Shown piece after piece: positions 16,429 to 35,003 of a stretch of DNA of 35,003 bases. This stretch comes from a virus. Position 1 is the stretch's first letter, and each line of letters opens with the position of its first letter. The stretch spans positions 1 through 35,003 of the IMG/VR virus record IMGVR_UViG_3300010391_000191, one strand, 5' to 3'. The notes beneath the pieces are model-generated. The model saw only the letters and a list, made by a program, of their open reading frames with translations, ran no database searches and was not told where the DNA came from. The translations under genes were made by a program, and so were the position numbers.

Positions 16429-16869
16429 ATGAGTAAAGAAACAACAAAAATTTGGAGAGAAAACCATAAAGAGCAAGTGCGTAAATATCGCAAAAAATGG
16501 AGTGATAATAATAAAGCGAAAATTAAAGAATGGCGACAAAAAAATCATGTTGCAAGAACAGAATACGAAAGGACGTATGCTCAAAAAAATAAAATAAGAC
16601 GAAGAAATATGTATGTATCTCGTACATATAATATATCAGAAAGTGAGTATAATGAAATTTTTGTCAAACAAAATGGCAAGTGTGCAATTTGTGGTAAACA
16701 TCAAACAGAATTAACATCTTTTTTAAGTGTTGACCATTGCCATCAAACCAATTTTATCCGTGGTTTGTTATGTGGCAAATGTAATAGAGCCATTGGATTA
16801 TTGGATGATGATATAGAAAATTTAAGATGTGCAATTATTTACCTCCAAAAAGGACAATCTAAAATATAG
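16429..16869 (+). CDS. Endonuclease VII-type HNH nuclease
   Basis: 146 aa. A very basic, Lys/Asn-rich N-terminus is followed from residue 66 by the endonuclease VII fold: YNISESEYNEIFVKQNGKC, CAICGKH, LSVDHCH, then IRGLLCGKCNRAIG. Zinc cysteines and the DHxH catalytic core are intact. It sits between scaffold and capsid with almost no ribosome site and a visibly more AT-rich composition than its neighbours, so it is probably a free-standing homing endonuclease rather than a packaging resolvase. A structured non-coding stretch follows it. Confidence 0.9.
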   Translation: MSKETTKIWRENHKEQVRKYRKKWSDNNKAKIKEWRQKNHVARTEYERTYAQKNKIRRRNMYVSRTYNISESEYNEIFVKQNGKCAICGKHQTELTSFLSVDHCHQTNFIRGLLCGKCNRAIGLLDDDIENLRCAIIYLQKGQSKI

Positions 16870-20409: not shown

Positions 20410-21003
20410 ATGGCTGAAGATATTACATTAGTTACCGAGATTTGTAATATGGCTCTTGGGCGCATAGGAGCTACGAGATTAGCATATACCGGAACAACTG
20501 AAACAGACCTTGACGCCAACACCACGCTTGAGGCGATACAGTGCAATCTTAATTATCATCAAACGAGAAAGACTGTACTTCGTTCTCACTATTGGAACTT
20601 TGCTTCGGCAAGGGCAAGTCTTGTACTTGATACGGAAACACCATCTTTCGGATGGGACTATCAATATGACTTGCCAGATGATTTTCTCAAGTTGAAGTTT
20701 TTCTACGAAGAAGAAAAATATACCATTGAAGGCAGAAAATTCTTGACCGATGAGGATTCGGCTTCTATTGAGTACATAAGAGATGTCACTGATGTAACCG
20801 AATTTAATCCTCTATTTGTAGAGATACTTGTTTTACAGTTGGCGTTAAAACTCATTCCCGCTCTTGCTGGTACGCAATCTGAAACTCTCCGTCAGGATTT
20901 AAAACAAGACCTTATGTTATTACTTCGCAGGGCAATAACAATAGAAAGACAAGAAACAAACGATACCGGAAAGAGCGATTGGAATAACGCTCGATTTGAA
21001 TAA
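20410..21003 (+). CDS. Tail adaptor (tail tubular protein A-like, T7 gp11 type)
   Basis: 197 aa, the usual size. It begins VTEICNMALGRIGATRL, then NYHQTRKTVLRSHYWNFASARASL, and DYQYDLPDDFLKL. These are the hallmark segments of podovirus gp11/TTPA gatekeeper proteins (helical bundle with WNFA and YDLP-DD motifs). It would bind the portal ring and the nozzle protein encoded downstream. An AAGGAG ribosome site precedes it. Confident by motif and order. Confidence 0.92.
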   Translation: MAEDITLVTEICNMALGRIGATRLAYTGTTETDLDANTTLEAIQCNLNYHQTRKTVLRSHYWNFASARASLVLDTETPSFGWDYQYDLPDDFLKLKFFYEEEKYTIEGRKFLTDEDSASIEYIRDVTDVTEFNPLFVEILVLQLALKLIPALAGTQSETLRQDLKQDLMLLLRRAITIERQETNDTGKSDWNNARFE

Positions 21004-21210: not shown

Positions 21211-21609
21211 ATGGCAAACGAGATCACGTTCGGTTGGAAATCAGGTAGTACATTGACTTACGGAGCATATCAACCGGATGGTTCGGTTCGCACCGCCGCT
21301 GCAACTGCATTGCCTGAAATTGGTACAACCGGATATTATACTGCAACCGATGCCGCTATTATTGCCGGAGATTTTGTAATAGTCAAAGAAAGTACAATGG
21401 TAGTTGGAGAGGGCCAGTACAAACCGGAAGTGTCAGTAAGTGGGGTAACTGCTGATTTGGCAACTATTGAGGGTAAAATTGATACTATTGATACAGTCCT
21501 TGATACAGTTGACTCCAATATTGATACTCTTATAACTATGCAAAACAATGTAGTTAATATCATTGACGAATCACAGGTTACTCCTTCTTTGCAGGTTATG
21601 GTAGAGTAA
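21211..21609 (+). CDS. Short fibre-like protein with heptad C-terminus
   Basis: 132 aa. The N-terminal 85 residues are a beta-type domain (ITFGWKSGSTLTYGAYQPDG; GEGQYKPEVSVSG). They are followed by repeating segments TIEGKIDTIDTVLDTVDSNI that form a coiled-coil or trimeric repeat. This N-domain plus I-D-T heptad layout is common in minor tail or baseplate-fibre proteins. One base from the upstream gene; no strong ribosome site. Confidence 0.6.
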   Translation: MANEITFGWKSGSTLTYGAYQPDGSVRTAAATALPEIGTTGYYTATDAAIIAGDFVIVKESTMVVGEGQYKPEVSVSGVTADLATIEGKIDTIDTVLDTVDSNIDTLITMQNNVVNIIDESQVTPSLQVMVE

Positions 21610-21611
21610 AA

Positions 21612-22028
21612 ATGAACATCCCAATCGTAAATTTAAATGGCGGCGAGTTTACATCACATCTTGACGCAAGGTCGGATACGGAAAAGTATTCATCTGGTTG
21701 CCGTCATCTTGAGAATATGATACCGAGAATTTACGGGCCTGTCGAAAGACGGCCTGGGACTATATATATATCCGGTGGGATAGACTTAAATACAATACTG
21801 CCAAGTATAATAGCGTGGGAAAATATAGGTTCATGTTATATCAATTCGGTTGTTTCAACTCTACCAGACAGTGCTTTAATGCCAATGTTCGTCTGCTATC
21901 AAAATGATATGGTATGTTTTGAAAATGAATCTGTTGTAAGTTTTGAAACCGCAGTATTAGCAGATGATATTGTCTGTTTAGAAAATAATGTAATATTTTA
22001 TGAAAACGAAATAACAATTTTTAATTAG
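21612..22028 (+). CDS. Duplicate N-terminal nozzle module with strand repeats
   Basis: 138 aa. Residues 1-52 copy the N-terminal region of podovirus tail tubular B/stabilization proteins: NLNGGEFTSHLDARSDTEKY, GCRHLENMIPR, ERRPGT. From about residue 65 come short repeats of the form hydrophobic-C-Y/F/W-E-N (MVCFENESVV, IVCLENNVIFYENE). The same two parts start the 22436-25207 protein, so this is a paralogous, shorter version lacking the solenoid. It may bind the nozzle as a small accessory. Confidence 0.7.
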   Translation: MNIPIVNLNGGEFTSHLDARSDTEKYSSGCRHLENMIPRIYGPVERRPGTIYISGGIDLNTILPSIIAWENIGSCYINSVVSTLPDSALMPMFVCYQNDMVCFENESVVSFETAVLADDIVCLENNVIFYENEITIFN

Positions 22029-22040
22029 GAGTTTTTTTAA

Positions 22041-22436
22041 ATGGCAGACCTTAAAGAAAAAGCAGTAGCACTTCTCGGTAGCGTGGACAGCGTTGATTTA
22101 AACGATGACGCATCCTCAACAACTATTTATACAGTTCCAGTTGGAATGAAATGTGTTCTTAACCATGTTAGAATAAGAAATTTATCCGCTAATGCTACAA
22201 GTTGCACCTGTACGGTTGGCCAGACCGGCGCATTGACGGATTTTCTTGGCACACAGACTTTGTCTGGCCTTAATGCTGCTGCTGCAACTGGTATTTTAAT
22301 GCCAGTGCCAAATGCAACAACTGTTAAGGGAATAGAATATCCTGCCGGAACAGCACTTGTTTTCAGAGTTGTTGCTGCCGCAGGAGTTGCCTGCACCGCT
22401 ACAATAGAATTTTTTGGAACTATTGACGTCGCCTAA
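22041..22436 (+). CDS. Small beta-rich virion protein
   Basis: 131 aa. The pattern SSTTIYTVPVGMKCVLNHV, then GIEYPAGTALVFRVVAAAG, is that of phage jelly-roll or head/tail decoration proteins. It lies between the two genes with nozzle N-modules and its TAA overlaps the next ATG (TAATG), so production is coupled to the large tail protein. No named family. Confidence 0.6.
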   Translation: MADLKEKAVALLGSVDSVDLNDDASSTTIYTVPVGMKCVLNHVRIRNLSANATSCTCTVGQTGALTDFLGTQTLSGLNAAAATGILMPVPNATTVKGIEYPAGTALVFRVVAAAGVACTATIEFFGTIDVA

Positions 22437-25207
22437 TGAATACTGAAATCGTATCATTTAATTCTGGGGAGATGACTCCAAACGAAGATGCTGTATCCAA
22501 TTTGGAGAAGTATGCCGCTGGATGTAGGCACTTGGAGAATTTCCTGCCAAGACCTTACGGCGATGCGGAGAGAAGGCCAGGTACGATAATTATACGCAAA
22601 GTGTTTAATCCATCAACTCTTCTTGTCTATCCTACTTTACACGAATTAACTCGTGAATTGCCAAGTATAGTTTCTTATGATAATATCAATTTAAGTTATG
22701 AAAACTCGACGGTAGAATCAGATGTAGAAGAAGACAATAGGGTTTACTATGATGGCAAGTTACTTTTTGATGGGAATAAACAAGTATATTATTTTGGCGT
22801 AGGCTCGACTAATTTTCAGGCCAATTTTGTTCCAGTTCCAATTCTCACATATTACGATGGTGATATTGTATGTTGGGAAAATGAAACCATAATTACCACT
22901 GGAGAAATAGTATATTGCCGAAACATAATCTGTTATGATAATAATGAGGTCTTCTGGGAAGATGATATAGTCGTTGCTTCGGTGGAAATGCCAAATGCGC
23001 CTCCAGAACCCTATGTTAAAGAAATACATCAAGTTTATTATGATGTTAGTACTCCGAATCTTGCCAATAGAGAAGTAGTTACTTATGAGGATGACCCAGT
23101 TTTCTATTATGAGAACTGGTCGCCAGTTACAACTGCCGCAGATTTACAGGCGATGGAGAAGAACAGGCGTTACCGTTTAACGACCGACATAGATTTGACT
23201 GGCGTTACATGGACGCCTATTATCGGTTTTTCGGGAACATTGGATGGTAATGGACACACTATCAGTAATTTAACTATTGATTACAGTTTTGATGTTTACA
23301 CAGGAGGGCTTACTGCCGACGCCACCGCCGATACCTTTACGGATACAGTGGGTGGAGAGGATTTCACCGATGGAACTGCGTTAAAAATATCCGGTACTGT
23401 CCCGACCGGATTGAGTTCGACAGTAACCTACTATATTATCAATTCCGTCGCTTGTGTCAGGCATAATGTAACTCTTAATTATCTTGTCAGTAACGTCAAT
23501 TTCAATAGTGTTGGTCATACGTTTATAAATGGTGATATTGTAAGAGTTGGTACTACTGGTGCTATACCTTCTGGTTCTCCATCGTGGAGTATTAACACAA
23601 ACTATTACGTTGTAAATGCTGCCGTAGATGTATTCAATTTATCAACTACTTCGGGTGGTTCGGCAAAAACTTTTACATCAAACGGAAGCGGTCAGGTAAG
23701 CGTTTATAAAAGAGCGACTTGCCAAATATCTACAAGTGTGGGTGGGGCAGCATCTTTGTTTACAAGTGCCGGTTCTGGTTTGTCCTTTACAACACCTCCC
23801 GCTGCACTATTTGAATCATTTTCAGACGGCGCACAAATATATAATCTAAATTTTTCCGATTGTGATATTTCCGGTGATGATTATATAGCTGTTTTAGTGG
23901 CCTCGATAAGTTCTAAAACGGGGATTGTACTAAAAGATATATCTATTAGTAATTGTACAGTAATAGGTGGCCAGTATATTGGTGCGCTTATTGGGTTAAA
24001 TTTTAATTCCGGCGGAATAAATATATTTAGTTGTTCAACTATCAACTGTACTATAAACACAACTTCGGATGTAGGTGGTCTTATAGGTTATCATCACCGA
24101 TTAAAGGCTGGAAATCCGAATTATTTTGTAGATTGTTGTGTAAACGGTGGGACTATTACATCCACTACGGGTTCTGGTACTGCTTATATAGGTGGTCTTG
24201 TGGGGGCATCACATGTATCGGCAAGTCCAAGTGGGATAACATTTGACCATTTCTACGGTTGTTATTCGACCGCATCTGTAATCAGCGCACAGGGTGATTT
24301 CGCAGGGGGTTTTGCATCTTTGTCGGAAGGTGTGCAATTTACAAATTGTTATGCAACCGGAGATATTACGGTTTACGATTACAGTGCAAGTGTTTCTTTC
24401 TTTGGTGGTTTTATTGGCGCTGCCGTAGATGGTTGCATATTTATTAACTGTTATACAACCGGTAATATATCCATAATCGTAAGCCCGACACAAGTATCAC
24501 AGATTGGTGGTTTTGCTGGTAAACTTGAATGTGGTACAAGTACGGATGTCAATCTTACCTGTTTAAGATGTTATTCGACCGGAGATGTTGATATTACGGG
24601 GGCTGCATGGAATGGTGTGGGGGGATTTGTTGGTTGTGCATGGCCTGCTACCGTTACAGACAAAACATCAACGATGACTATAGAAAGATGTTTTGCGAGA
24701 GGTGATATTGCATTAACAGAAAGTAAGGCCGTGTTAATGACTACCTATAAAGGCGGGGCGGGTGGTTTTTGTGGCTGGGCAGAAAATTATTCGTCTGGAG
24801 CAGTAACTACACTTACTTTTTTGAACTGTTATGCTTGGGGCGATATTGTCGATAACGAAACCGCCACACGTATTGCCGCCTATGGCGGTTTTTTAGGATT
24901 TTCCCAAAGCTCAAATGCCTCCAATATATTTTCATTCACAAATTGTTATTGCGCACAGACAAACAGTGAATATGGTTCTGGTTTTGTGGGGAAAATTCCT
25001 ACTGGCACTAATTCGCATGGGTTTGGTTCTGCTGTGGCAGCGGGGTCGAAGACAACTTTTGTCGTTACTGAATGTTTTTATGATACCCAAACATCAAGTC
25101 TTTCAACTTCTACAAGTGGCGAAGGGCAAAGCACGGACGAAATGATGACAAAATCAAATTATATAGATTGGGATTTCGTTAATAAATGGGAAATGGTTGA
25201 ACTATGA
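22436..25207 (+). CDS. Split nozzle protein, N-terminal part fused to a GLUG beta-solenoid
   Basis: 923 aa. Residues 1-56 are the N-terminus of a tail tubular B/stabilization protein (SFNSGEMTPNEDAVSNLEKY, ERRPGTIIIRK). Residues 75-228 carry short Y/W-D/E-N strand repeats. At 236-282 begins a GLUG-type domain (MEKNRRYRLTTDIDLTG, FSGTLDGNGHTISNLTID). This is interrupted at about 285-455 by two YYVVN-type phage modules and resumes with AQIYNLNFSDCDISG. Residues 480-880 are GLUG repeats (NCYATGDI...GGFIG). The end, CFYDTQTSS...WDF, is the typical close of GLUG proteins. Its stop overlaps the next gene by ATGA. Likely receptor-binding surface material on the tail nozzle. Confidence 0.8.
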   Translation: MNTEIVSFNSGEMTPNEDAVSNLEKYAAGCRHLENFLPRPYGDAERRPGTIIIRKVFNPSTLLVYPTLHELTRELPSIVSYDNINLSYENSTVESDVEEDNRVYYDGKLLFDGNKQVYYFGVGSTNFQANFVPVPILTYYDGDIVCWENETIITTGEIVYCRNIICYDNNEVFWEDDIVVASVEMPNAPPEPYVKEIHQVYYDVSTPNLANREVVTYEDDPVFYYENWSPVTTAADLQAMEKNRRYRLTTDIDLTGVTWTPIIGFSGTLDGNGHTISNLTIDYSFDVYTGGLTADATADTFTDTVGGEDFTDGTALKISGTVPTGLSSTVTYYIINSVACVRHNVTLNYLVSNVNFNSVGHTFINGDIVRVGTTGAIPSGSPSWSINTNYYVVNAAVDVFNLSTTSGGSAKTFTSNGSGQVSVYKRATCQISTSVGGAASLFTSAGSGLSFTTPPAALFESFSDGAQIYNLNFSDCDISGDDYIAVLVASISSKTGIVLKDISISNCTVIGGQYIGALIGLNFNSGGINIFSCSTINCTINTTSDVGGLIGYHHRLKAGNPNYFVDCCVNGGTITSTTGSGTAYIGGLVGASHVSASPSGITFDHFYGCYSTASVISAQGDFAGGFASLSEGVQFTNCYATGDITVYDYSASVSFFGGFIGAAVDGCIFINCYTTGNISIIVSPTQVSQIGGFAGKLECGTSTDVNLTCLRCYSTGDVDITGAAWNGVGGFVGCAWPATVTDKTSTMTIERCFARGDIALTESKAVLMTTYKGGAGGFCGWAENYSSGAVTTLTFLNCYAWGDIVDNETATRIAAYGGFLGFSQSSNASNIFSFTNCYCAQTNSEYGSGFVGKIPTGTNSHGFGSAVAAGSKTTFVVTECFYDTQTSSLSTSTSGEGQSTDEMMTKSNYIDWDFVNKWEMVEL

Positions 25208-27297
25208 TTAGAATGATACCATTTATATATAACTCTGAAATTGCTTATGAGGTAGAATTTGGCAATTTATACGCCAGATTCTATTATGATAAGGAAGTAT
25301 TATTAGATGAAAATGGTTACGACGCAGTAATTGGTACTCCATATCTGGAGGCCGACTTGCTTGAATTACAATTTAAGCAGATAGGTGATACGATGTGGAT
25401 AGTCCACCAAGATTATGCACCGAGAAAACTTACAAGAACTACGGCATATACTTTCAGTCTGGATGTGATAGTATTCGAGAACGGGCCATTTAGAGTTAGA
25501 AATGATATTCTTGAAGATGACGATGTTACGATGACTTCCGACGTTTATTCCGTTGGTGGAACTGGTACGCTTACTGCATCAGCGGAAACATTCGTAGCTG
25601 GACATGATGGCGCATTATTCTCATTAACTTATCCCAAAGATTCAAATGTTTCTGAGGGTTCGGTAGCCGAGGCACTTGGAACTCCCGATGTTTGTCCTGC
25701 GATAGACGTTAAGGGGACTGTAACATTTGTTACTCACGGTACATGGTCGGCGACTATTGTAGTTTATCGAAATGAGAATGGAACTGGTTGGGATGTATAT
25801 AGAACCTATACCGGAAAAGACGATAGGAATATTCAATATACATGGACTGAAACGGAAGATAATGTCCAATACAAAGCGGTCGTAACGGCCTTTACAAGCG
25901 GAACTGTCAATGCCGAAATAGCGGTTAATAATCATCTCCAAATCGGGGTAGTGAGAATAGACAGTATTACTTCTCCGACAGTTGCCGCCATTACCGTAAT
26001 GACGAAACTACCGACAACTAATGGTCTGGTCGCAACTTACAGGTGGGCAGAGGGCGCATGGTCTGATTACAGGGGGTATCCGGTATCGCTAACATTCTTT
26101 GAAGGTCGATGTGTTTATGTTGGCGGAAATACTATATGGGCGAGTAAGAGCGGTGATTTTGAAAGATTTGAAGAAGGTGTCTTAGATGCCGATTCGTTCT
26201 GGGATACCATTCCAACTACTAATGAAATAAGATGGGTAGAGAGCACCGATAGTGTTTTAATTGGAACATCCGGCGATGAATGGATAGTTACTCGTAATAA
26301 AATTGGTACTCCAATGACACCTTCAAACTATATAATTGAGCCGCTAACAGCGGTAGGTAGTGCCAGGATTCAACCTGTTAAAATAAATAACGCTATTCTA
26401 TTCGTTGATTTTGTAGGTAGAAAGATTAGGGAACTTTCAACTGGGAGTACCGATAGATATGTTACTCCCGATATGACTATCCTGTCGGAACATATTACCA
26501 GTAGCGGAATACTCGGTATGTCTTTACAGAGAAATCCAGAAATCATACTTTGGTGCTGGCTAACCGATGGCACTTTACTTTCAATGACTTACGAAAGAGA
26601 ACAAGATGTCGTTGCGTGGTCTAAACACCCAACTGACGGGCAAGTGCTATCTGTAAGTGTAATTCCTGGAGTAGATGAGGATGAGGTATGGATTTCAGTA
26701 GAAAGAGAAGTAGTTGGCGTTGATACTGTACTAATAGAAGTCTTTGTGCCAAGAGTATTCGATACCATCTCTGATTGCCATTTTGTTGATTCAGGTGTTT
26801 TCTACGATGGTACTGCCGCAACGGTAATTACCGGACTTGACCATCTTGCCGGTGAAACCGTTCATATTCTTGCTGACGGCGTGGTAGTTGACCCACAGGT
26901 TGTCAGTGCGGCTGGGACTATCACTCTTGCCGTTGCAGCATCTAAAGTTCACGCTGGACTTCCTTATACGCCCAAACTCGAACCAATGAGGCCGGACGTA
27001 GCAACAAGAGGTGGTACGACACATAGTAGTCTGGTGAAAGTGCCGGAAATGGGCATTTCATTCTTGAATACGATGAATGCAACCTACGGTGTATCCGATT
27101 CAAAGCAGTTTGACATTAACTGGACTGACGCAAGATGGCAAAATAATACGGAAATTACGGGACTATTCACGGGCGATGTCGTCGTTGCGGTCGATGGCGG
27201 CTTCACGCTCGATAACAATTTAATAATATCCAATCACGACCCGTTGCCGATGACGGTAAGGGCTTTAATACCTAAATTAGAAAAGACAGGGAGATAA
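25204..27297 (+). CDS. Tail nozzle protein, C-terminal main part (tail tubular B-like)
   Basis: 697 aa. The start RMIPFIYNSEIAYEVEFGN, then ARFYYDKEV, GTPYLEADLLELQFKQIGD and MWIVHQDYAPRKLTR, is exactly what normally follows the RRPGT segment inside single-chain podovirus stabilization/nozzle proteins. The later segments GYPVSLTFFEGRCVYVG and WASKSGDFERFEEG are also family hallmarks. The protein thus lacks its own N-terminal strand, which is encoded on the previous gene. The ATGA junction suggests balanced production of both pieces. It should form the hexameric tail tube below the adaptor. Confidence 0.88.
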   Translation: MIRMIPFIYNSEIAYEVEFGNLYARFYYDKEVLLDENGYDAVIGTPYLEADLLELQFKQIGDTMWIVHQDYAPRKLTRTTAYTFSLDVIVFENGPFRVRNDILEDDDVTMTSDVYSVGGTGTLTASAETFVAGHDGALFSLTYPKDSNVSEGSVAEALGTPDVCPAIDVKGTVTFVTHGTWSATIVVYRNENGTGWDVYRTYTGKDDRNIQYTWTETEDNVQYKAVVTAFTSGTVNAEIAVNNHLQIGVVRIDSITSPTVAAITVMTKLPTTNGLVATYRWAEGAWSDYRGYPVSLTFFEGRCVYVGGNTIWASKSGDFERFEEGVLDADSFWDTIPTTNEIRWVESTDSVLIGTSGDEWIVTRNKIGTPMTPSNYIIEPLTAVGSARIQPVKINNAILFVDFVGRKIRELSTGSTDRYVTPDMTILSEHITSSGILGMSLQRNPEIILWCWLTDGTLLSMTYEREQDVVAWSKHPTDGQVLSVSVIPGVDEDEVWISVEREVVGVDTVLIEVFVPRVFDTISDCHFVDSGVFYDGTAATVITGLDHLAGETVHILADGVVVDPQVVSAAGTITLAVAASKVHAGLPYTPKLEPMRPDVATRGGTTHSSLVKVPEMGISFLNTMNATYGVSDSKQFDINWTDARWQNNTEITGLFTGDVVVAVDGGFTLDNNLIISNHDPLPMTVRALIPKLEKTGR

Positions 27298-27298
27298 A

Positions 27299-27697
27299 AT
27301 GGCAGGTAGTGCAAAAGTAACAATTAAAGTGGACGTATCTGGTTTGGGTGAAGAAATAAACATTTCTAATGCCAAGACAATGACTGTTCCGGTAGAGGTT
27401 CAAAGTGGTTATACAATCTTGCCTATTGCAACGGCAGCAATACAATTATTTGATATGATAGACCATATAGCCCTTGCCAAGATTTACGGTGTTTATATTA
27501 AGTCTGAATCTGGTACAGTTTTAATTGCAATAGATACGGCAGGAACAACTATCCTAACCGCCGCAACTGCCGATTTGGTTTTGAATGTTGGCGAGTCTTG
27601 TTATCTGCCAATAAATCCCGCAGGCAATCTTGGCCTTGTAATAAATGGATTAGTGGCAACAGACACGGCAAGTTGGACAATTTTAGGTAAAGCCTAA
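27299..27697 (+). CDS. Small beta-rich virion protein
   Basis: 132 aa, one base after the nozzle gene, and its TAA overlaps the next ATG. Sequence alternates strands (AKVTIKVDVSGLGEEINIS; TVLIAIDTAGTTILTAATADL; WTILGKA) and predicts a beta sandwich. No family recognised; position suggests a nozzle or head-tail decoration protein. Confidence 0.6.
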   Translation: MAGSAKVTIKVDVSGLGEEINISNAKTMTVPVEVQSGYTILPIATAAIQLFDMIDHIALAKIYGVYIKSESGTVLIAIDTAGTTILTAATADLVLNVGESCYLPINPAGNLGLVINGLVATDTASWTILGKA

Positions 27698-28107
27698 TGA
27701 TATTTAGAGAAACCACACTGGAAGATGTCGAATTTGCTGGCAACCATTCTATTAGTAGGGGTATTAGCAAGCGACAACCCGAAAAGATAGAGTATTTATA
27801 TACTCTCGAACATCACGAAGTACCTCTCGGCATTGGCGGATTCCACTTAATTAACCTTACTACTGCATGGTGTTGGGTTGATTTAATGGATACTGCGGGC
27901 GAACACATGATAGTTGCTTATCGTGTTATTAAAGAATGGATAGACATCTTCGCAAAAGAACACAACCTAAAACGACTCCAAGCCTATGTCCAGATGGATT
28001 TCCCAGAGGCTATCAGGATGGTACAGCATTTAGGATTTGAGAAGGAAAGTATTATGAAGAATTTCGTTGGCGATAAAGACGCATTGTTGTATGTGAGGGT
28101 ATTATGA
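27697..28107 (+). CDS. GNAT-fold protein of the T7 gp13-like type
   Basis: 136 aa. MIFRETTLEDVEFAGNH, a VPLGIGGFHLINL strand pair, a helix after it, and a C-terminal FPEAIRMVQHLGFEKESIM segment follow the GNAT acetyltransferase fold. Podoviruses with this gene order carry such a protein (T7 gp13-like) between nozzle and ejection proteins. The acetyl-CoA loop (Q/RxxGxG/A) is not obvious, so it may be structural rather than catalytic. TAATG and ATGA junctions couple it to both neighbours. Confidence 0.8.
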   Translation: MIFRETTLEDVEFAGNHSISRGISKRQPEKIEYLYTLEHHEVPLGIGGFHLINLTTAWCWVDLMDTAGEHMIVAYRVIKEWIDIFAKEHNLKRLQAYVQMDFPEAIRMVQHLGFEKESIMKNFVGDKDALLYVRVL

Positions 28108-33351: not shown

Positions 33352-35003
33352 ATGCAAATCCTGCCAATTAGAGACCCTTACGCAGTACCTTATACCGGCG
33401 CAACCGGTACTGTCAATCTTGGCGCTAACGCTCTGTCCGCAGGAGCGATAACAGGAACGTCGTTAGATATTACAGGCAATGCGGTTTCTACTTTTGGGGG
33501 CGCAAGTTCAACTGGAAATTACATTAAGGTCACAGGAAGTAAAACAGAGAATACTTATGATGTTTTTCGGGGCGAAAGAAAATATCCAAGAATTACCCTA
33601 TGTGATACTTCTGTTGGAGGAGAAGAGTTTAATCTTTGGAGTTTAGGAACACAGTTAAGATTTGGAACAGCCACAGATATTGCTGGAGACAGTGCCTTTT
33701 ATGCAAAGGCAGGAGCAAAAGGAAGTGTTATCTTTAATGGCAATATAGGTATATCAACTCCTATTCCATTGGCAAGATTACATCTTCCCGCTGGCACAGT
33801 TTACGCATTTAAGGCTCCATTAACATTTACTTTGACTGGTGCAGCATTAACAACTGTTGCGGTCGCAGGACAGTTAGAAACTGACACTACCGATATTTAT
33901 TATACAGATGGCACACCCACAAGACACAAGTTGGCATATTATGATTTCGGCGCTAATAACTTTACTGGAACAGGCACGCTTGCCGCAGGCGCTACAACAA
34001 TAGAAACTACGCTTCTTCTGCAAAGTGGTTCTATAACCGATTCATCTGGGGCAATCGACTTCGATGATAATAATTTAACCACAACTGGCAAAGTCGGCAT
34101 AGGCATAACTCCAACTTACAAACTCGATGTTTACGGAACTGTATTAGATACAACTTTAGTTAATATTGCCTGTGATGACCTCTCAGGTGACACCATCAAT
34201 GGTTCAGTATTCAAAATAGACACAACCACTGACACTGGCACCACCCTATCTTTTTATGGTCAACGGCAGGAATATGTATTTAATCGAGAACAAAAGGATA
34301 CTGGTGTAGATGATTTCTCCTTTAGTGCCTCAGCTATTATTGGGCAAGACTTATCCGTAATTAGTAATACAAAAATATCAGATGTTACTGATTTCTTAGG
34401 TAATATGACGGATATATGGGGCATAAAATTTAGTGTTCAGGACTATTCTAACGATATAAGCTCTAATGATTCATATATGAATTTGGTTGGATTATTATGC
34501 TCCGCCGGAAGTATCCCGAAAATGCACAAGTCCGCCGGAACTAATACGTATTTGGTGAAGGGGGCATCTTTTGTAGCAGGTTTTTCGGATAACGATGAGG
34601 TTGCCGGAAACAATGGTTTGGCAGATGTTAGTGTGATTGGCGGAGAATTTTATGCGTCAATAAGTGACAATAGTAAAATTGTTTTTACGAACAAAAAAGT
34701 CTATGGGGGATTTTTTAGGGCATTGGGAGGAACAGAGAATTGGGCTATCTGGAACGGAGATGGTGACGTTTTCCTCGGTGATGATAACGAACGAACATAT
34801 TGGGGAACTGGTTTGGACGCCGCCATTTATTACGATGGAACAGACCTGATATGCAATCCAGCTTTAGTTGGTTCGGGCGGATTTAAGGTATCAACTACTC
34901 TTGGCGTTACCGGCCTGACAACGGCAACGGGGGGGATAAGTTGCGCAAACGACCTTACTTTCACCACAGACGGCTCTGGCCTGCCTTACGGTTCGTGTTC
35001 AAA
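33352..35003 (+). CDS. Tail fibre/spike protein, truncated by window end
   Basis: At least 550 aa, open to the right edge. It starts MQILPIRDPYAVPYTGATG immediately after the ejection gene stop. It has alternating beta and Gly/Thr-rich repeats such as LTTTGKVGIGITPTYKLDVYG, IGISTPIPLARLHLP, and LGVTGLTTATGGI, which are typical of long tail fibres that end in an S74-type or similar C-terminal chaperone. The end is not seen, so a chaperone or receptor domain cannot be confirmed. It is in the usual distal place for a host-recognition protein. Confidence 0.82.
   Translation, partial: MQILPIRDPYAVPYTGATGTVNLGANALSAGAITGTSLDITGNAVSTFGGASSTGNYIKVTGSKTENTYDVFRGERKYPRITLCDTSVGGEEFNLWSLGTQLRFGTATDIAGDSAFYAKAGAKGSVIFNGNIGISTPIPLARLHLPAGTVYAFKAPLTFTLTGAALTTVAVAGQLETDTTDIYYTDGTPTRHKLAYYDFGANNFTGTGTLAAGATTIETTLLLQSGSITDSSGAIDFDDNNLTTTGKVGIGITPTYKLDVYGTVLDTTLVNIACDDLSGDTINGSVFKIDTTTDTGTTLSFYGQRQEYVFNREQKDTGVDDFSFSASAIIGQDLSVISNTKISDVTDFLGNMTDIWGIKFSVQDYSNDISSNDSYMNLVGLLCSAGSIPKMHKSAGTNTYLVKGASFVAGFSDNDEVAGNNGLADVSVIGGEFYASISDNSKIVFTNKKVYGGFFRALGGTENWAIWNGDGDVFLGDDNERTYWGTGLDAAIYYDGTDLICNPALVGSGGFKVSTTLGVTGLTTATGGISCANDLTFTTDGSGLPYGSCS

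Follow-up and report, generated by a model that had tools for sequence, protein, structure and literature searches.

The tail nozzle of a phage seals the genome and opens upon host contact, and it is normally one protein chain. In the window, by which we mean the whole 35,003-base viral contig analysed here, nozzle sequence is divided between separate ORFs within a podovirus-type head and tail module that also holds genes for the large terminase, portal, major head protein, adaptor and internal virion proteins. This raises the question whether the nozzle is truly made in pieces, and what the pieces do. The nozzle proves to be genuinely split, and in our judgement it is likely that its N-terminal segment (the first ~56 residues, NT below) acts in trans to complete the platform and to dock a beta-solenoid adhesin on some of the six positions.

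The break lies between two ORFs on the plus strand. The upstream one (22436-25207; 923 aa, ORF confirmed) is a decorated NT protein, and the downstream one (25204-27297; 697 aa) is a headless nozzle core with propeller, tip and C-terminal platform, without NT. Columns 9-62 of the 712-column tail protein profile PHROG_376 match aa 6-59 of the 923-aa protein (E 2.6e-10) and columns 66-710 match aa 2-695 of the 697-aa protein (E 7.9e-156). Since the profile is continuous across the two ORFs, the cut is a clean one, with hardly any nozzle sequence lost. The core is also matched by the Carin1 nozzle 8ck1 (E 3.6e-71), and a check for an N-terminal domain elsewhere in the 697-aa protein found none. 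Judged by these matches, the window nozzle is a split variant of the PHROG_376 podovirus nozzle family; one uninterrupted chain is usual in this family, without being part of its definition, and here the chain is interrupted at 25204.

Within ten nucleotides of the junction (25198-25207, plus strand) lie the stop of the core frame (25198-25200), the start of the core and the stop of the decorated NT protein. The two ORFs are in different frames and overlap by ATGA only (4 nt), which suggests that their translation may be coupled; no strong Shine-Dalgarno sequence precedes 25204. Only 7 nt are open in both frames, as is also the case in a related locus, L021, and no Rfam intron family matches the window. 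Together, the short common open frame and the absence of an intron family indicate that the window nozzle is made as two chains. The original prediction, which placed the nozzle N-terminus on the 923-aa protein and its continuation on the 697-aa protein with an ATGA joint, is thus confirmed by the ORFs and the PHROG_376 columns, and it concluded correctly that assembly of the nozzle takes more than one chain. It was incomplete, in that NT is duplicated and a plain 138-aa copy had been overlooked.

This plain copy is encoded just upstream (21612-22028, plus strand). It consists of NT (aa 1-56), matching PHROG_376 columns 8-56 with E 3e-13, and a short tail of beta-strand hairpins; with 80 residues of strands in this tail the window copy is not strictly bare. 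The NT segments of the 138-aa and 923-aa proteins are 59% identical. In the decorated protein the NT segment covers aa 1-59 (22436-22612, PHROG_376 columns 9-62) and is followed by a strand-hairpin region (aa 60-227; 22613-23116) resembling the tail of the plain protein; the likeness of this shared stretch is seen in the alignment of the two NT proteins and in a direct repeat family, D1, common to both genes. The window thus contains two NT genes and one headless core. Counterparts of the plain protein with the same build are found in L109 (137 aa), L194 (140 aa) and L201 (142 aa).

Similar hairpins, such as VTWEGETV/VCYENEIV, recur in the NT proteins, a small neighbour protein, the adaptor and the nozzle core of the clade described below (window 21780-22028 and 22613-23116; L019 2984-3463; L022 8144-9049 and 10938-13712; L026 11098-13155). 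We considered whether they are a mobile in-frame element; similar hairpins do occur in several clade proteins, but the pattern count was unconvincing.

In the window the nozzle genes come after the adaptor gene and ahead of those for the GNAT-like and internal virion proteins; additional ORFs separate the core from the adaptor. The adaptor (tail tubular protein A; 20410-21003, plus strand), the 12-fold ring that carries the nozzle, matches PHROG_394 with E 1.1e-42. It is followed by a 132-aa protein (21211-21609, plus strand) that gave no family match in a profile search and is a regular neighbour of clade NT genes: similar ORFs precede NT in L113, L108, L228, L019 and L022. Between the two NT genes lies a 131-aa 'DLKEK' protein (22041-22436, plus strand), conserved near the nozzle throughout the clade, with counterparts in L109, L194, L201, L240, L024 and L022. 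The block ends with a GNAT-like protein (27697-28107, plus strand; PF13420, 26.1 bits against a cut-off of 24.3), which by gene order occupies the position of epsilon15 gp13. Elsewhere in the window, an endonuclease VII-like gene (16429-16869; PF02945, 80.8 bits) stands between a scaffold/protease-like gene and the major head protein, and a reading frame at 33352-35003, at least 550 aa long, tail-fibre-like by eye and without a PHROG match, runs off the contig end.

To see how the nozzle is organised in relatives, we scanned the window and 272 fetched loci with HMMs for NT and core; the loci (L with a number) came from core and NT searches of uncultured virus contigs, plus prokaryote contigs, and repeats were removed before counting. 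NT and nozzle sequence form one chain in 189 distinct loci, and a spare NT is absent from every one of them. Free NT genes accompany a headless core in 19 loci, seven of which have two NT genes; the association of two NT genes with a headless core gives a Fisher p of 1.7e-8, uncorrected for kinship among loci. Every headless core with enough flanking sequence is accompanied by at least one NT gene, and a decorated NT (at least 160 aa) is always accompanied by a bare one (7/7 loci). In the headless cores the start methionine stands a few residues ahead of the conserved R-(L/M/I)-(I/V)-P-F. Four loci were left out of the evidence: L139 and L206 may be assembly breaks (L139 has Ser/Pro-rich repeats), and L236 and L251 may have frame errors.

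The double sets vary in length (window 138/923 aa, L109 436/137, L224 64/395, L024 474/90, L022 74/246, L116 61/356, L112 64/73). That of L112 is two bare NT without a decorated partner, and in L194 a 140-aa NT is paired with a long copy that is truncated. A single free NT of ~60 aa together with a core is found in L021, L025, L108, L117, L178, L220, L222, L237, L240, L241, L250 and L259, while three loci with a single such NT (L195, L217, L228) end before the core. The nearest locus by NT is L194, with 74% identity over 50 residues and the gene order of the window: plain NT, small 'DLKEK' protein, long NT. In L108 (6516-11254), L220, L222, L237, L250 and L259 the bare ~60-aa NT goes with a headless core that has ~340 extra N-terminal residues, and in L108 two small ORFs lie between the two.

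An NT query matches 111 of the 50,697 records of the phage collection, in one place each, and the matches listed for the window core are all below 40% identity. In the reference phages (epsilon15, Carin1, BcepC6B, HTVC010P, AF and others) one nozzle gene directly follows the adaptor. The split is no lone oddity, and instead is a recurrent architecture of one clade: the nearest relatives (L109, L112, L194) are split too, although a single-chain nozzle, or one without a clear split, is found in four clade members and in every more distant relative except one.

The structure of an intact clade member gives an idea of what the break detaches. The model of L111, built from 55 sequences, is well determined (pLDDT 91.7, pTM 0.87) with NT well ordered. 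It aligns to the Carin1 nozzle 8ck1 with Z 46.9 over 650 residues at 1.8 A, and to T7 gp12 with Z 28.5 (model residues 1-754 on T7 4-790); alignments of unrelated propellers are mostly confined to the stretch from about residue 34-45 to 580. The nozzle fold, a seven-bladed propeller with tip, fibre dock and a platform barrel that includes the N-terminal strands, is thus found in L111, which stands here for the intact form and not for the window protein itself. In T7 gp12 the C-terminal platform barrel receives three of its strands from the 45-residue N-terminus, a velcro strand closes the propeller, and the place where fibres attach is between adaptor and nozzle; the platform is also in contact with the adaptor, which has 12 subunits to the six nozzle chains (PMC6702177). 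What a break after residue ~57 cuts off is therefore a segment that packs against the far end of the same protein even when the chain is intact. As the NT strands complete the C-terminal barrel in T7, strand completion in trans is the natural reading, and it would put a payload fused to NT near the fibre dock.

The payload of the window (aa 228-923; 23117-25207), a proposed adhesin, is a predicted GLUG-type beta-solenoid. The GLUG assignment of the original prediction stands in so far as PF07581 is above cut-off in the window and strong in several related payloads (up to 69 bits); in the window itself it is marginal (22.3 bits against 20.5). In addition, phrog_30905 matches aa 231-286, and a stretch of ~145 residues (aa ~283-427) is inserted within the payload. 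The AlphaFold model of the 923-aa protein, from five sequences, is poor (pLDDT 45.5) and solenoid-like, with repeated short strands at aa 455-885; its fold matches are weak and none is significant, nearly all of them being beta-helices (best E 0.05, to a beta-helical protein). No known fibre anchor or tailspike family matches the 923-aa protein in Pfam or PHROG.

Other payloads follow NT in other loci. GLUG-type solenoids are found in the window and L024 by Pfam, and in L109 (also phrog_30905) and L224 by eye, while L116 has a LamG domain and L022 another domain. Payloads diverge faster than cores: identity is 41% for payloads against 59% for cores between L109 and L224, and 34% against 51% between the window and L109, with a shuffled baseline of ~25%. 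By their position and divergence, the decorated payloads are probably host-surface adhesins. In L112 a pectate-lyase-like gene (PF12708; 7537-9111) lies between the two bare NT genes and the headless core.

The nozzle had been described as split in two by a very large insertion. As the cause of the break this does not hold, for the same break occurs with a bare ~60-aa NT (L021, L025) or with LamG (L116), and GLUG solenoids also occur at a different break. In L021 a 64-aa NT is joined to the core by ATGA. Neither there nor in L025 does the split come with a payload on NT, and we therefore reject insertion as a necessary cause. The different break is at core column ~275, where L020, L114, L115 and L178 have GLUG solenoids and the piece is not duplicated. 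A third break, at the border of propeller and platform (column ~490), shows the same short-plus-long pattern as NT: the ORFs for the C-terminal domain are 192 and 606 aa in L023 and 213 and 650 aa in L101, and the long copies have a repeat-rich domain of several hundred residues, propeller-like by eye. These two loci, in which the C-terminal domain is split off and duplicated (L023 12289-14603, L101 11554-14042), are distantly related. Conversely, L030 (7351-11256) has a single-chain nozzle of ~1,300 aa with large inserts, LamG-like by eye, near core column 50, which indicates that a payload can be inserted without splitting the chain.

In a tree of the propeller half, 20 split and 4 intact loci group together with 100/100 support, and L101 is a separate case. 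Nearly all splits thus fall within one clade, which has no cultured members. On this tree the NT split needs 8 changes, and constraining the loci with the NT split to a single clade is rejected (p-AU 0.017), which indicates repeated fission, refusion or exchange. Between paired NT copies pS is 0.50-0.84 and pN 0.15-0.29 (window 0.75 and 0.28); since pS is far above pN, both copies are constrained, and invariant residues are retained in both.

HNH-type endonuclease genes are candidates for the agent of fission, by analogy with the split nrdA of Aeh1. They lie just upstream of NT on the opposite strand in L019 (3475-4191, minus) and L021 (8174-8863, minus), and near the locus in L020 (8031-8543, minus), L025 (11795-12229, minus) and L112 (5797-6351, minus); the count of their enrichment used clade members as seeds. 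No endonuclease gene is present at the break in the window.

Judged by T7 gp12, NT is no free-standing domain in an intact nozzle; it would add three strands to the platform barrel before the chain continues into the propeller. In the split nozzle, each of the six cores would receive an NT protein in trans at the interface of adaptor and nozzle, where podovirus fibres dock. Fold homology makes this docking very probable. The decorated 923-aa copy would then anchor a host-surface adhesin on the tail. That the N-terminal piece anchors a host-binding solenoid had been proposed as an alternative to assembly from two chains; it is plausible, and the two are compatible. The plain 138-aa copy would fill the remaining positions, so that a symmetric tail could carry a bulky adhesin at less than full occupancy. 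Such a mixed ring, with the solenoid on some of the six positions, is suggested by decorated copies always occurring with a bare one. However, the two bare NT of L112 call for no decorated partner. Further, at the column ~275 break the piece with the payload is not duplicated, so full occupancy seems to be tolerated there, and from its context we rate the mixed ring at slightly under an even chance.

Could the nozzle still be one chain with a large inserted domain, divided by a sequencing or assembly error or rejoined by programmed frameshifting or splicing? Two ORFs in different frames with a 4-nt overlap might be read in this way, and intact relatives with large in-chain insertions exist (L030). 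However, independent contigs share the break, with start methionines, which excludes the assembly error at 25204 that the original prediction had flagged for checking. Further, NT and core are separated by other genes in L109 and in L108-type loci, and the plain NT has its own stop. With the 7-nt common open frame of the window and L021 and the lack of an Rfam intron, we reject error, frameshift fusion and splicing, and give the one-chain reading practically no weight. It is hardly more credible that the NT pieces are decaying remnants and that the core works alone: five residues are lost from the long NT of L024, but the low pN and the invariant residues of both copies, as well as the NT gene beside every sufficiently flanked headless core, speak against decay.

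The other explanations accept the split and differ in how the two NT proteins are used. The plain and decorated forms might both dock on the core, in different virions or at different times, much like a host-range switch. Payloads are indeed variable and exchangeable between loci, and the order and number of NT genes vary among near relatives (L109, L112, L224, window). Nevertheless, both NT genes of the window share a strand and a compact block, the window shows no sign of an inverted or switching element, and no decorated NT occurs without a bare one; we regard this alternative use as unlikely. Somewhat less likely again is that the extra copies attach to a different ring, such as free sites of the 12-fold adaptor, as pure adhesin anchors. 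The 12 adaptor subunits to six nozzle chains, and the contact of the platform with the adaptor (PMC6702177), would allow it, but an anchor independent of the core should also occur beside fused nozzles, and there the count of spare NT is 0/189. Docking of both NT forms in trans on the split core is thus the reading that we prefer.

In family (PHROG_376) and in the fold of an intact member, the nozzle resembles Carin1 gp36 (8ck1), T7 gp12, epsilon15 gp12 and P22 gp10, and the gene order is alike, with the nozzle following the adaptor and preceding the GNAT-like and internal virion proteins. Those nozzles are one chain, whereas here the chain is broken after ~57 residues and NT is encoded twice, once with a large solenoid. 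Our searches of the open-access literature found no report of a split nozzle. Phage genes in pieces are known, such as the split nrdA of Aeh1, DNA polymerase 43A/43B and T4 topoisomerase 39/60, and split phage proteins can work in pieces (PMC2988022). As proposed for the nozzle, a normally continuous protein is there made as separate polypeptides that reassemble, and a further likeness is that homing endonuclease genes are near some of the loci. However, those proteins are enzymes and no piece is duplicated, while here a structural ring protein is split, a piece is duplicated and one copy gains a domain. In tailspikes and fibres (e.g. T7 gp17) a small N-terminal module fixes a large host-binding part, as NT would do; there the anchor is an added docking domain, while here it would be the nozzle's own NT, needed to complete the nozzle. 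The payload shares its repeated short-strand GLUG motifs with bacterial surface proteins (PF07581); in GLUG proteins a cell-surface signal or anchor is present, and here the solenoid follows a phage nozzle segment instead.

More generally, and tentatively, splitting a symmetric tail protein, duplicating a piece and decorating one copy may be an evolutionary route to an adhesin on some of the six-fold positions, one that could have arisen at both ends of the nozzle, with NT as a plug-in docking clip for unrelated host-binding domains. If so, a nozzle in pieces with a peptide clip that accepts payloads would show how a symmetric machine can carry a sub-stoichiometric adhesin, and would be an example of a structural protein whose gene underwent fission, duplication and the gain of a domain. 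Nozzle genes of environmental phages that are in pieces can also be missed or misannotated.

One member of the split-nozzle clade, L178, is on a contig binned with a Phycisphaerae (Planctomycetota) MAG; this is a possible hint at the host, though it may be a matter of binning.
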